Assembly (NCBI RefSeq): GCF_031501865.1
Contig: NZ_JARRCW010000001.1
Coordinates: forward strand, 4,477,001-4,541,000
Direction: 5' to 3'
Source of the DNA: Pseudovibrio sp. M1P-2-3
Lineage (GTDB): Bacteria; Pseudomonadota; Alphaproteobacteria; Rhizobiales; Stappiaceae
DNA length: 64,000 nucleotides
A program made the position numbers and the translations under genes. Shown one piece after another: positions 7,192 to 17,242 of this stretch (positions within the stretch are counted from its first letter, which is position 1; each line of letters begins with the position of its first letter). The notes beneath the pieces are model-generated. The model was not told where the DNA came from, did no database searches, and saw only the letters and a program-made list of their open reading frames with translations.

Positions 7192-8400
7192 TCATCCATT
7201 TCCGGGTGCATTCTTGGGAATTACAGCGTTATGAAGAGATTTACGGGCAACCGGCTTTGCTGTTGGCAGTGGTATATTCTCGGCCAAAGGCACACCCTTA
7301 TGTTCTTTGATGCCTGCCACACCCACACTGACTTTTATAGGCGCGTAGGACTTTATCTGAGGGCCCAGAATTTCCTCATAGACCCGCGACCAGTTTACTT
7401 TGTTGTTTGCACTGACAACCTTTATCCCTTCGGAACGTGGAAGCTCTGAGTTTGCATAGGAGAGCGTAGGCAGCTCTGCTCGTTTTGTACCAAATCTATC
7501 GACAAGCTCTTGAGCTGTCGGCTTCTCATTCCGTTTACAGTATTGATCTGCTGGCGGACTTTTAACTTTTTGAGGGGCTAAGTGATAAAGTGACGGGCCA
7601 GTGCTGTTTTTAAACCCGTTATCAATGAGTTTTTTTGCAAATGCCGCTCTTTCAAGGCCTGAGGCCGCGCCTAATACAACGGCTATCAAGGTTCTGCCAC
7701 GACGAGTTGCCGACGTTGCCACATTGTAACCGGAGTTACATATGTACCCTGTTTTCAGTCCATTGGCGCCTTCCACACGCAGAAGGTAATCCTTGTTCCC
7801 AGACCTCATTGTGCGCTTACCGAAACGAATACCCGCTTGTTTCATATAGTTTCGGTGTTGCGGGAATTCGGTCCACAAAGCCCGTGCAAGAATAGCAAGA
7901 TCTCTAGCTGACGATACCTGCCTATTGTCAGGCAAACCGTGGGGGTTCACAAACTGTGTATGTGTTAAACCCATTTTTCTGGCGGTTTTGTTCATCATGC
8001 GAACAAACTCTTGTTCACTCCCACCAGCAGCTTCGCTAATCGCCACTGCAATATCATTTGCAGACTTTACAAGCAGCATATTCAAAGCGCTATCAAGGGT
8101 CATAAGTGTACCAACCTTGAAACCCATTTTGCTGGGAGGCTGGTTAAGAGCCCGCTGTGAAATCCGGACCGGGCTTTGCAGCGTAAGCTGGCTCTGCCCA
8201 ATTTGGCTAAAGACCACATAGGCTGTCATCATTTTAGTGAGAGAGGCTGGATACCATTTTTGAAAAGCCTCATGCTGTTCAAGAACTGTTCCATCCTTCG
8301 CGTCCACAACGATCCATGCCGCCACATCAGCATTTGCAGGAAGAGCTCCGGTAGCCAAAGCCAGCAGAGCAGCCAAAACAATGGTCCTAAATTTTTTCAT
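7192..8400 (-). CDS. D-alanyl-D-alanine carboxypeptidase (penicillin-binding protein, peptidase S11)
   Basis: A 402-residue secreted S11 peptidase that trims the terminal D-Ala from peptidoglycan pentapeptides. A signal peptide covers about residues 1-24 (KKF, hydrophobic core, ANA cleavage). The active-site motifs are SLTK at 53-56, SAN at 113-115 and KTG at 216-218. After the catalytic domain there is a C-terminal extension of about 130 residues, rich in Lys, Pro and Ala, without an obvious amphipathic membrane anchor of the E. coli DacA type. I chose the ATG at 8400 because it starts a clean signal peptide; an upstream TTG at 8427 would add nine residues. The gene is separated from the CobW gene by 116 bases. 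Confidence 0.9.
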   Translation of the reverse strand: MKKFRTIVLAALLALATGALPANADVAAWIVVDAKDGTVLEQHEAFQKWYPASLTKMMTAYVVFSQIGQSQLTLQSPVRISQRALNQPPSKMGFKVGTLMTLDSALNMLLVKSANDIAVAISEAAGGSEQEFVRMMNKTARKMGLTHTQFVNPHGLPDNRQVSSARDLAILARALWTEFPQHRNYMKQAGIRFGKRTMRSGNKDYLLRVEGANGLKTGYICNSGYNVATSATRRGRTLIAVVLGAASGLERAAFAKKLIDNGFKNSTGPSLYHLAPQKVKSPPADQYCKRNEKPTAQELVDRFGTKRAELPTLSYANSELPRSEGIKVVSANNKVNWSRVYEEILGPQIKSYAPIKVSVGVAGIKEHKGVPLAENIPLPTAKPVARKSLHNAVIPKNAPGNG

Positions 8401-15222: not shown

Positions 15223-15908
15223 AACTCATTCTCCTGAAACGTTCAAAGCGTGCGAACACTCCCTATGTTTTGTCTGAATGGGCCTAAAATAGCAACGTGT
15301 CAAAAATTGAATTTCTCTCAACGTTAAAGTGGTAGTAATCGCAACCTGCCGATTTCGTAAGGTTTTGGGCACGCACTGCAAAGCAGCACCACACGGCTTC
15401 CCGGGCAGATTGGAAATCAAGACCCCGAGGAACGGGAGTGGCAAGGCAAACAGGCCCAAGCCTGCGCAGTAATTCATAAAATGTTTCTTCGGCTTTGGCC
15501 TGTCGCCTTGCCCGGGTCTTTTTTTGCAGCGCAGGCACATTGCCCCGGATAGGCGCCATAAGACAGTTTCCTGTCACCACTGTACGCCACCCAAGGATAT
15601 GCATGTCTTAAAGGAGACCTGTGGCCTCGCTCCGGTAAGAACCCGCATGCACGAACCATCCGGAAAGATACGTTACCTCTCCCCGTTAGCCCAACCCGGC
15701 CCATAACGCCCCGGCGGACGGTCCACCGAAGGCCCGCTTTCATGGGCACGAAGCAAGTGTAGAGGAGGTGAGGCAGAGGGGGATAAGATTCTATGAGAAG
15801 TATCTACCAAAGACAGGTGGGAAGTTTTCGCGGATACGCATGAGCTAAAAAGTGGAGGATAGTCGTTACATGGAGTTACATTAAATAGGCATAGAGTAAT
15901 TATATTGA
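15223..15908. other. Unassigned 686-base region, mostly GC-rich, no gene called
   Basis: From about 15340 to 15780 the base composition is clearly richer in G+C than leuC's flank and far richer than the AT-rich gene that follows. Three overlapping minus-strand frames (15226-15540, 15284-15604, 15474-15749) are open, but none has a good ribosome binding site or a recognisable domain. I looked for tmRNA (tag-coding segment), RNase P RNA and SRP RNA signatures and found none. It could be a gene remnant, an unknown structured RNA, or leuC leader sequence plus inserted DNA. Confidence 0.4.
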
Positions 15909-17165
15909 ATGACGAGTACTGTAGCAAAGGGAAATGAACTCGAAAACAAGTTCTATAAATACCTCCGAGACCAACAAGATCGAGGGGATTTAGTCTATGG
16001 AGCATATCCTGGTGAACTTTGTAAGATTCATAAAAAGAAAAAGTACCTCTGTAATTTTCGCGGAGGCGAAGTTGAATTTGATGTTGTTCTCGAGATTTAT
16101 GCCAAAGGAAGAACTTCACCACAAATATACGTGGTTTTTGAATGTAAAAATTATGGAAACAGTATTCCCGAAATCGAAGTTAATGATTTTTCACATAAGT
16201 TAGAGCGAATATTCAAGCACGCAGTCAAAGGTGTTTTTGTTGTATCAACTCGACTGCAATCCGGGGCTGAGCACGTCGTAAGAAATAGCCGTATTGGAAT
16301 TGTCAAATATGATGAACATGGCTTTGAAGTCGTCTCTGATCGCACAGGTAACACATGTTTAGAACGTGGTTATGTAGGGTCACAAATCTTTAGCAACGTG
16401 AACCAACCCAACCCCTTAAAATTTTCAGCATATTATGGCGGAAGTTTTTTTGGTTCACTCAATCATTTTTTGGGAGCTATTATTTCAAATAAGCCCATAG
16501 ACGACGGGCTTGAGAGCAAGCGGATAAATATCCCATATGTCTCTTTTGATGATTTAAATACGTCAGCTCAATATCTTCTGGAAGTAATTGATTATTTTGA
16601 TGGTGACGTTGATCTAAAAAAAATCTGCGCTACACTTAATATTGATCTTCAGTGCTCTAAAGAAAAAATAACCAACAATTACGGTAATCCAATATTAGGA
16701 TCAGCAAACTTCGATCAGAAAACTATTAAGATTAATTTTCATAAAAATAAGGAACGAAAAAGATTCACCATCGCGCATGAAATCGGGCATTTTTATATGC
16801 AACATGATCGCTACTTACGCTCTGAAACCCATATAGAGAATGATCTTTTATTAGATAGTGATAGAGAAAACGAATTTCATTATGAGCGCCTTGAGTATCA
16901 AGCCAATACTTTCGCTTCGTGCCTACTCCTTCCCGAAAAGAGCTTCCTGAGAAAAATTGAAGAATATAGGGCAGGTCTAGATATCAAAAACAGAGGCCAC
17001 GGTTACATCTATGTTGATGATCAACCTTGCAATTATACAATCTACAAACTTTTTCTAACGCAGTTAAAATTGCATTTTAAGGTTTCTGAGCAAGCGATTG
17101 AAATTAAGCTCAAGAAGATGGGACTACTTAATGATCAGAGAGCATTCTCATTAGCCAAGCTGTAA
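15909..17165 (+). CDS. Fusion protein: Mrr-like PD-(D/E)XK nuclease domain plus ImmA/IrrE metallopeptidase domain
   Basis: A 418-residue protein with two recognisable parts. Residues about 8-135 look like an Mrr/type IV restriction-endonuclease fold: an N-terminal GNELENKFYKYL helix, FD at 57-58, ECK at 78-80, then KGVFVVSTRLQSGAEHVVRNSRIGIV. This gives a D-x19-E-x-K active-site pattern. Residues about 270-345 match ImmA/IrrE peptidases: IAHEIGHF (HEIGH at 290-294) and, 35 residues on, LEYQANTFASCLLLP with Glu329 as the likely third zinc ligand. The gene is AT-rich compared with its neighbours and splits the usual rplS-leuC pair, suggesting horizontal gain. No partner antitoxin or HTH gene adjoins it. 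A defence or DNA-damage role is an inference. The ATG at 15909 lacks a strong ribosome binding site. Confidence 0.75.
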   Translation: MTSTVAKGNELENKFYKYLRDQQDRGDLVYGAYPGELCKIHKKKKYLCNFRGGEVEFDVVLEIYAKGRTSPQIYVVFECKNYGNSIPEIEVNDFSHKLERIFKHAVKGVFVVSTRLQSGAEHVVRNSRIGIVKYDEHGFEVVSDRTGNTCLERGYVGSQIFSNVNQPNPLKFSAYYGGSFFGSLNHFLGAIISNKPIDDGLESKRINIPYVSFDDLNTSAQYLLEVIDYFDGDVDLKKICATLNIDLQCSKEKITNNYGNPILGSANFDQKTIKINFHKNKERKRFTIAHEIGHFYMQHDRYLRSETHIENDLLLDSDRENEFHYERLEYQANTFASCLLLPEKSFLRKIEEYRAGLDIKNRGHGYIYVDDQPCNYTIYKLFLTQLKLHFKVSEQAIEIKLKKMGLLNDQRAFSLAKL

Positions 17166-17203: not shown

Positions 17204-17242
17204 TAAAAAACCTGCTGCCTGTGAAAGGCAGCAGGTTCTTTT
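17204..17242. terminator. Bidirectional terminator between the Mrr-ImmA gene and rplS
   Basis: ACCTGCTGCCT (17210-17220) pairs perfectly with AGGCAGCAGGT (17226-17236) over a five-base loop. A-run upstream (AATAAAAA) and TCTTTTG downstream make it work on both strands. It probably ends the rplS operon on the minus strand and the fusion gene on the plus strand. Confidence 0.85.

Follow-up and report, generated by a model that had tools for sequence, protein, structure and literature searches.

The gene and its locus

The stretch of DNA analyzed here, referred to as the window, comprises 64,000 nucleotides from Pseudovibrio sp. M1P-2-3, and all coordinates count within it. At 15909..17165, on the forward strand, it carries an open reading frame (ORF) for a 418-residue protein in which a PD-(D/E)XK nuclease domain is followed in the same chain by an M78/IrrE/CapP-like zinc peptidase domain. 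The ORF list and its translation agree exactly with the length, strand and coordinates that an earlier note on this DNA had given for the gene, and the residues named there as two active sites (D58, E78-C-K80, HEIGH at 290-294 and E329) lie where they had been placed. That the gene encodes an intact two-enzyme protein is nearly certain.

The fusion gene lies between leuC and rplS, both recognized from their sequences; it is divergent from leuC and convergent on rplS. The space between the convergent gene ends holds a strong stem-loop (17205..17241, assigned to neither strand) with a 16-pair stem, a 5-nucleotide loop and T-rich tails on both strands, which is likely to be a two-way terminator. 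The fusion gene has leuC and rplS as its immediate neighbors, and neither a repressor gene nor an antitoxin gene stands next to it. There is no adjoining immune operon either, the fusion gene ending at the stem-loop against rplS (immune genes were not looked for in the remainder of the window). The guanine-plus-cytosine (GC) content of the gene, 36.8%, is the lowest among 54 non-overlapping window ORFs of at least 150 amino acids, picked by length (median 48.5%, standard deviation 3.2), in agreement with the AT-rich composition previously ascribed to it.

The gene had been described as an insertion into a normally adjacent pair, leuC and rplS, and this part of the description does not hold. 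Among 15 congeners, 14 have a match to rplS, and in 13 the compared stretch includes both rplS and leuC. The slot is filled by a metallophosphoesterase gene (286-300 amino acids) in 11 of these 13 and is a bare gap of 392 or 383 base pairs (bp) in the remaining two; none of the 13 has the fusion gene there. All 11 metallophosphoesterase genes were confirmed by tblastn, and the Calcineurin-like Pfam domain was checked on one (slot loci L108-L121). A metallophosphoesterase query found nothing in the whole genome that contains the window, or in genomes G001 and G013. The same query finds the gene in G012, G014 and G009, indicating that the loss from the window's genome is real. The fusion gene thus stands where a different gene has been lost; a bare gap is also found in genomes without the fusion gene.

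A dispersed intergenic repeat lies just upstream of the fusion gene, at 15386-15790, with 12 matches in its own genome (itself included). Matches to it were found in 13 of the 15 congeners and in none of 45 other genomes searched. This repeat might be a landing or recombination site for the gene.

Two folds in one chain

Both folds that the note had read from the two active-site patterns are borne out. The Mrr_cat and Peptidase_M78 profiles score above their curated Pfam cut-offs, Mrr_cat barely, and the AlphaFold2 (AF2) model matches Can2 and AF1548 in its N-terminal half and CapP and PprI in its C-terminal half. The model was built from six aligned members of the family and has a mean predicted local distance difference test score (pLDDT) of 71.3 and a predicted template modeling score (pTM) of 0.47, at which the separate domains are usable. 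A single-sequence AF2 model, with a pLDDT of 33, was discarded. Structures were compared by VIA-align, and folds absent from its matches were not used for any conclusion.

Model confidence is low at residues 141-167 and 195-208, and falls below a pLDDT of 50 in the latter, which form the inter-domain linker (16491..16532; this and all further features of the gene are on the forward strand). The stretch from 141 to 208 is also the least conserved part of the protein. Its mean pairwise identity is 19.3%, compared to 39.9% for residues 1-140, 36.3% for 209-300, 26.0% for 301-324 and 41.1% for 325-411. Residues 195-208 are a candidate hinge or cleavage region.

The nuclease half

The nuclease domain comprises residues 1-195 (15909..16493). 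Mrr_cat matches the window protein marginally, over residues 56-134, with 21.4 bits against a cut-off of 21 (expect value 2.8e-4), and matches 12 of 14 family members scanned at E<=0.01. The AF2 model of this half consists of a helix (4-24), three strands (38-48, 53-63 and 73-80), a helix (88-101), a strand (106-112), a helix (118-126) and a final strand (130-143); as modeled, this is the helix-strand order of a PD-(D/E)XK nuclease. The catalytic residues of such enzymes, here D58 (codon 16080..16082) and E78 and K80 (codons of E78-C79-K80, 16140..16148), are invariant in all 16 intact members of the family, as is C79, and the D-x19-ECK spacing is identical in every one.

VIA-align matches the N-terminal half to Can2 (7bdv_C; Z 11.9, root-mean-square deviation (rmsd) 2.6, 129 residues aligned). 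Further matches are AF1548 (Z 11.8), the repair enzyme EndoMS (5gke, 10.2), NucC (9.1), McrBC (8.7) and Card1 (8.5). Can2, NucC and McrBC are suicide or restriction DNases. A sequence search of the PDB with a profile of the nuclease half yielded nothing credible, and its four matches, with E of 0.47-1.6, were taken for chance. In Mrr type IV restriction enzymes an N-terminal winged-helix domain, Mrr_N, precedes Mrr_cat. In the window protein neither Mrr_N nor CARF gives a Pfam match at E<=1. The families it resembles suggest that the nuclease half is a metal-dependent DNase of the Mrr/Can2 type. It shares the PD-(D/E)XK core and D-x19-ExK with the Mrr_cat and Can2-Card1-NucC DNases but differs from them in having a peptidase as its second domain.

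A 625-residue viral protein (L125:6189-8066) ends in an M78 domain, the only domain that Pfam shows in it. The stretch before M78 resembles the same nuclease core by eye, with EAY in place of ECK, and the protein is perhaps an inactive sister form of the fusion.

The peptidase half

Pfam, PADLOC and VIA-align all place residues 209-418 (16533..17162) among the M78/IrrE/CapP-like zinc peptidases. Peptidase_M78 matches residues 269-402 with 61.7 bits against a cut-off of 22 (7.9e-17), and matches all 14 family members scanned at E<=0.01. The PADLOC capP model matches residues 216-358 at 4e-23 and is likewise found in 14 of 14 members. For residues 207-418 of the model, VIA-align gives CapP (7t5t; Z 13.3, rmsd 2.9, 158 aligned), PprI (8sln; Z 12.2, rmsd 3.3, 159 aligned) and IrrE (3dti; Z 11.7), and a PDB sequence search with a profile of both halves finds CapP at 9.8e-10. 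The zinc motif of the M78 family, HExxH with a downstream glutamate, is present as HEIGH at 290-294 (16776..16790) and E329 (16893..16895), the third zinc-site residue, which lies in an E-x-QAN motif; H290, E291, H294 and E329 are invariant in all 16 intact members. A further pattern, D370-x-Q-x-x-N375 (17016..17033), is a signature of the family. D370 and N375 are found in all 16 members and Q372 in 15, and the pattern occurs in none of the 43 generic M78 ORFs that were scored out of 53 loci looked at.

No PADLOC model (database of 2023) spans both halves of the window protein. It is matched by 15 models at E<=0.01 or 16 at E<=1, with the best stretches all within residues 216-410, and 13 other members are matched by the same shared peptidase models, with weak matches to Specificity_I and mREase_IV in single members.

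CapP and PprI are described as M78 peptidases that are activated by single-stranded DNA (ssDNA) and cut a repressor (PMC10904395, PMC13373217). R85 and F88 of PprI are given among the ssDNA contacts (PMC10904395). They align with R283 and F286 of the window protein, assuming a two-residue numbering offset derived from His92 of HEXXH. By analogy to these proteins, the fusion may sense ssDNA and act as a peptidase.

Conservation and distribution of the family

The 16 intact, full-length members, window copy included, come from Alpha- and Gammaproteobacteria, Bacteroidota and viral contigs. Besides the window they are L009 (Microvirga), L010 (a Rhodobacteraceae metagenome-assembled genome), L013 (a Spirosoma plasmid), L014 (Acinetobacter, with a near-same gene in two further records), L076, L077, L078 and L079, and, from the viral collection, L072, L074, L075, L122, L123, L139 and L140. 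The viral collection also supplied L073, which is broken by an in-frame stop. Invariant in all 16 are G8, E12, Y46, R51, D58, E62, E78, C79, K80, F94, K107 and G119 in the N-terminal half and I273, F286, H290, E291, H294, E329, Q331, A332, N333, F335, P342, D370 and N375 in the C-terminal half. Since both active sites are kept in every intact member, selection holds both halves, and the fusion is conserved across two bacterial phyla.

Other copies are damaged or incomplete. L080 has a frameshift; L012, in Rhizobium gallicum, consists of the C-terminal part only, from about residue 181, with a transposase gene adjoining; L081 runs off the end of its contig, and L082 is an N-terminal part on a short contig. 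In a tree of the 16 members the window copy clusters with L010 and L076 (99/96), and these three nest in a group of eight (100/100), to which the Microvirga copy and viral copies also belong. Support is weak at most other forks, and the tree joins long branches.

The distribution of the family is patchy and mobile. Eight of 101 genomes of relatives match the query, the seven others by the peptidase half only. A sample of the class gave matches in 74 of 385 genomes, full-length in two (its own and G101), and none of the 15 congeners has a full-length copy. For the phylum the count was 84 of 398, with full-length copies in four genomes (its own, G711, G577 and G744) and partial or split ones in G701 (at a contig end), G551 and G733; a sample of the class of G711 gave three matches in 369 genomes, none of them new. 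Thirty-two plasmid records match, two of them over at least 80% of the query, as do three phage records, two of which cover at least 80% and both represent the Acinetobacter gene. Searching again with the L123 protein brought in no further full-length record, and two scans of viral contigs found no relative. The earlier suggestion that the window gene was gained horizontally is well supported.

In the annotated records examined, relatives carry the name "ImmA/IrrE family metallo-endopeptidase" or "Domain of uncharacterised function (DUF955)" and no other, so that the nuclease half goes unmarked. An Adhaeribacter plasmid (L015:4601-6658) carries in a row a helix-turn-helix (HTH) gene, a separate M78 gene and an annotated "PDDEXK nuclease" gene. 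This set places the three functions next to each other, but it was considered as a split member and rejected, its M78 protein being without the family motif and its nuclease resembling the YhcG/DUF1016 kind.

Genomic settings of the relatives

No partner gene recurs at the intact loci in the ORF lists, the annotation or selected domain scans. The idea of a one-gene mobile unit has held up, with some relatives in prophages and some beside or inside defense-type loci. L010 lies in a prophage head module, with GpA terminase, portal and head decoration genes upstream and DUF6441 downstream. At L072 and L139 the gene sits between a phage exonuclease gene and a portal gene, in phages that we read as T7-like. 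From this lineage, 27 loci were retrieved by portal, and among the 24 with both flanks, some of which are near-duplicates, the fusion gene is present in two (the L072 and L139 contigs) and absent from 22. It is therefore optional in these phages: a relative with a 90% identical portal lacks it, and the two copies themselves are just 54% identical. In distant relatives of the T7-like phages the exonuclease-portal slot holds other cargo (L241:1396-2799 and L243:807-2210), including a 467-residue ORF that resembles ribonucleotide reductase by eye.

L075 is Mu-like, with a transposase, a Ner-like repressor and a terminase. The gene order at L123 is P2-related, namely integrase, ParA-like, a 172-residue ORF, the fusion, a 135-residue ORF, CI repressor and gpA-type nickase. 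In a Vibrionaceae phage that is P2-related, the site between integrase and CI is reported as an antiviral hotspot (PMC9122126), and L123 lies at a site of this type. PADLOC gave no match on the scanned neighbors of L123 and L075.

Defense-type neighbors were found for some relatives (L073, L013 and L122), in addition to the hotspot-type site of L123. At the broken L073, a DRT6 reverse transcriptase gene (PADLOC 2.2e-156; Pfam RVT_1) lies 69 bp upstream, with a terminase gene further down. The upstream neighbor of L013 is an nSTAND3 ATPase, one end of which is weakly Mrr-like; it is matched by the PADLOC candidate PDC-S73 (1.5e-28). At L122 the next ORF is a DUF3800 protein, PADLOC candidate PDC-M04A, and spanin and UmuC-type genes lie upstream (the polymerase recognized by eye). 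L140 is near a lysozyme-like gene (by eye), and L074 is beside a DNA ligase gene, an SRAP gene and a muramidase gene.

Several further observations concern these loci. Short ORFs that look membrane-bound by eye end 36 bp upstream of the fusion at L123 (L123:2557-3075) and 87 bp upstream at L140 (L140:3536-3892); the one at L123 has no Pfam or PADLOC match. With two cases only, such an ORF was set aside as a recurring partner. Beside the Microvirga relative, on the opposite strand, is a second, single-domain M78 protein (L009:9418-10056), whose gene precedes a large gene that resembles ribonucleotide reductase by eye. In another prophage (L124:7809-10222), after the terminase, the gene of a stand-alone 248-residue M78 protein is followed at a distance of 80 bp by that of a DRT8-type reverse transcriptase (PADLOC 1.5e-102). 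The C-terminal motif of this M78 protein, DxExxN, is similar to that of the fusion family. L124 and L073 are thus two pairings of such an M78 protein with a defense reverse transcriptase.

Proposed function and alternatives

We interpret the fusion as a mobile single-gene cassette for anti-phage defense or for superinfection exclusion by prophages, with a probability of roughly 0.6. A role of some kind in phage or mobile-element conflict is quite probable. The nuclease half would be the effector, and the CapP/PprI-type peptidase half the sensor and switch. In a healthy cell the peptidase would be idle and the nuclease held back. Single-stranded DNA, whether supplied by an invading phage or by damaged DNA, would engage the peptidase, which would then cut its target, freeing the nuclease to degrade DNA. 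Because no substrate gene recurs nearby, the target would be either the chain itself, at the loose linker in 141-208, or a phage or host protein. That the peptidase switches the nuclease of its own chain is a tentative proposal, to which we give somewhat less than even odds, and self-cleavage of the fusion seems unlikely.

Several facts weigh against the cassette interpretation. The mutual arrangement of the two domains is not reliable in a model with a pTM of 0.47. An arginine at the place of R283 is found in 20 of 23 generic M78 proteins scored (from 53 loci, one strand read) but in only 12 of the 16 members of the fusion family. The R283/F286 signature is general to M78 and does not mark this family out as ssDNA-sensing, and we rejected it as a special mark. 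The other two ssDNA-contacting arginines of PprI sit in its GAF-like domain (PMC10904395). As to context, the neighbors of the fusion gene in the window, L009, L014, L076, L077, L078 and L079 are ordinary chromosomal genes, with no partner recognized among them. Seven of the 16 intact members, and L073, are viral by construction and cannot show how frequently phages carry the gene; the nine other intact loci include one clear prophage (L010) and one plasmid (L013). An adjacent defense-type gene was seen at three of 17 loci (the 16 intact ones and L073), at two of them through PADLOC candidate models. PADLOC was run on the neighbors of L073, L013, L122, L123 and L075, and of L124; the others were assessed by Pfam, annotation and eye.

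Among the alternatives, the one that survives best is an ImmA-kind regulator of lysogeny or of a mobile element, in which DNA damage would lead the peptidase to cleave a phage or element repressor, with the nuclease half in an accessory role of binding or nicking DNA. Several relatives lie within prophages, and ImmR-ImmA of the ICEBs1 type also has an M78 peptidase. At L075 an XRE/CI-like repressor gene ends 37 bp ahead of the point where the fusion ORF opens, and about 136 bp ahead of the start, at 7995, that agrees with the relatives. This repressor gene faces the Ner-like repressor and the transposase, an arrangement like that of ImmR-ImmA. However, L075 is the one locus among the 16 where an XRE gene was recognized directly upstream; an HTH gene lies 255 bp upstream at L078, and the ORF lists, read partly by eye, reveal no adjoining repressor gene at the window, L009, L010, L072 or L139. 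ImmA is not known to carry a nuclease. A regulator would not need the nuclease active site that is strictly kept here. We consider such a regulator improbable.

About equally improbable, if not slightly more so, is a one-chain toxin-antitoxin or addiction module, in which a DNase toxin checked by the peptidase half would stabilize the element that carries it. Among predicted toxin-antitoxin operons, M78 proteins (COG2856) with an Xre domain, either as a partner or in the same protein, are frequent (PMC2701414). For the phage-defense system PD-lambda-2, PMC9519451 describes toxicity of the Xre-peptidase itself, PD-lambda-2B, and its neutralization by a HigB-like partner. The existence of broken copies (L073, L080 and L012) is also consistent with such a module. 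Against it, no second gene recurs, and post-segregational killing, which usually depends on unequal half-lives of the two parts, would not arise where both are in a single chain.

A housekeeping enzyme for DNA damage or repair, that is, a repair nuclease joined to a relative of IrrE, would fit the resemblance of the nuclease fold to EndoMS and the role of PprI in governing a DNA-damage response (PMC10904395). The gene is nonetheless patchy even within the class (two of 385 genomes full-length, its own included, and none of 15 congeners), has the lowest GC content of the window ORFs and is carried by phages, which makes a repair role very improbable. A decaying passenger without function in its Pseudovibrio host, which the three broken relatives might suggest, is the least probable of all, the window copy being intact with every invariant residue in place.

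Relation to known systems and significance

The cassette proposed here has several partial counterparts. CapP, of the CapH+CapP pair, is the best structural match of the C-terminal half, and its PADLOC model matches the window protein. CapP stands alone as a protein, however, and its substrate is the repressor CapH beside an immune operon (PMC13373217), whereas the window gene has no CapH-like gene or operon adjoining and carries its nuclease in the same chain. IrrE/PprI of Deinococcus has the same peptidase fold, with R-x-x-F ahead of HExxH among its ssDNA contacts. It differs in its HTH and GAF-like regions and in its partner, DdrO (PMC10904395), whereas the fusion has a nuclease preceding the peptidase. 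PD-lambda-2 of E. coli, as PMC9519451 presents it, is also a phage defense with an ImmA/IrrE-like peptidase, but consists of three genes (a HigB-like toxin, an Xre-peptidase and a P4 antitoxin-like gene) and has no nuclease fusion.

The earlier note knew of no characterized system of exactly this build, and among the papers that the literature searches listed, judged mostly by title and opening of the abstract, none describes a nuclease-M78 fusion either; most subscription journals were outside the searches, so that this absence is weak evidence. The nearest report is PMC9519451, which describes the PD-lambda-2 Xre-peptidase and, as a separate system, a beta-propeller protein with an N-terminal Mrr-family nuclease. 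The domains of the fusion are known, and so is their niche in conflict; the wiring is new.

CapP and PprI each have a separate repressor as their target and serve to control other genes; the fusion welds a sensor of their type to a DNase. If the cassette reading is correct, the fusion would be the simplest damage-triggered defense circuit of its kind, moving between genomes without a recurring partner gene. It could even be a self-activating protease-zymogen nuclease, in which the ssDNA-bound peptidase would cut its own linker and release the DNase, whose cuts would yield more ssDNA, although we regard this version as doubtful. Such a self-feeding switch, if real, would parallel the SOS response in a single gene and independently of RecA, would be wired to abortive infection and would be spread by prophages.

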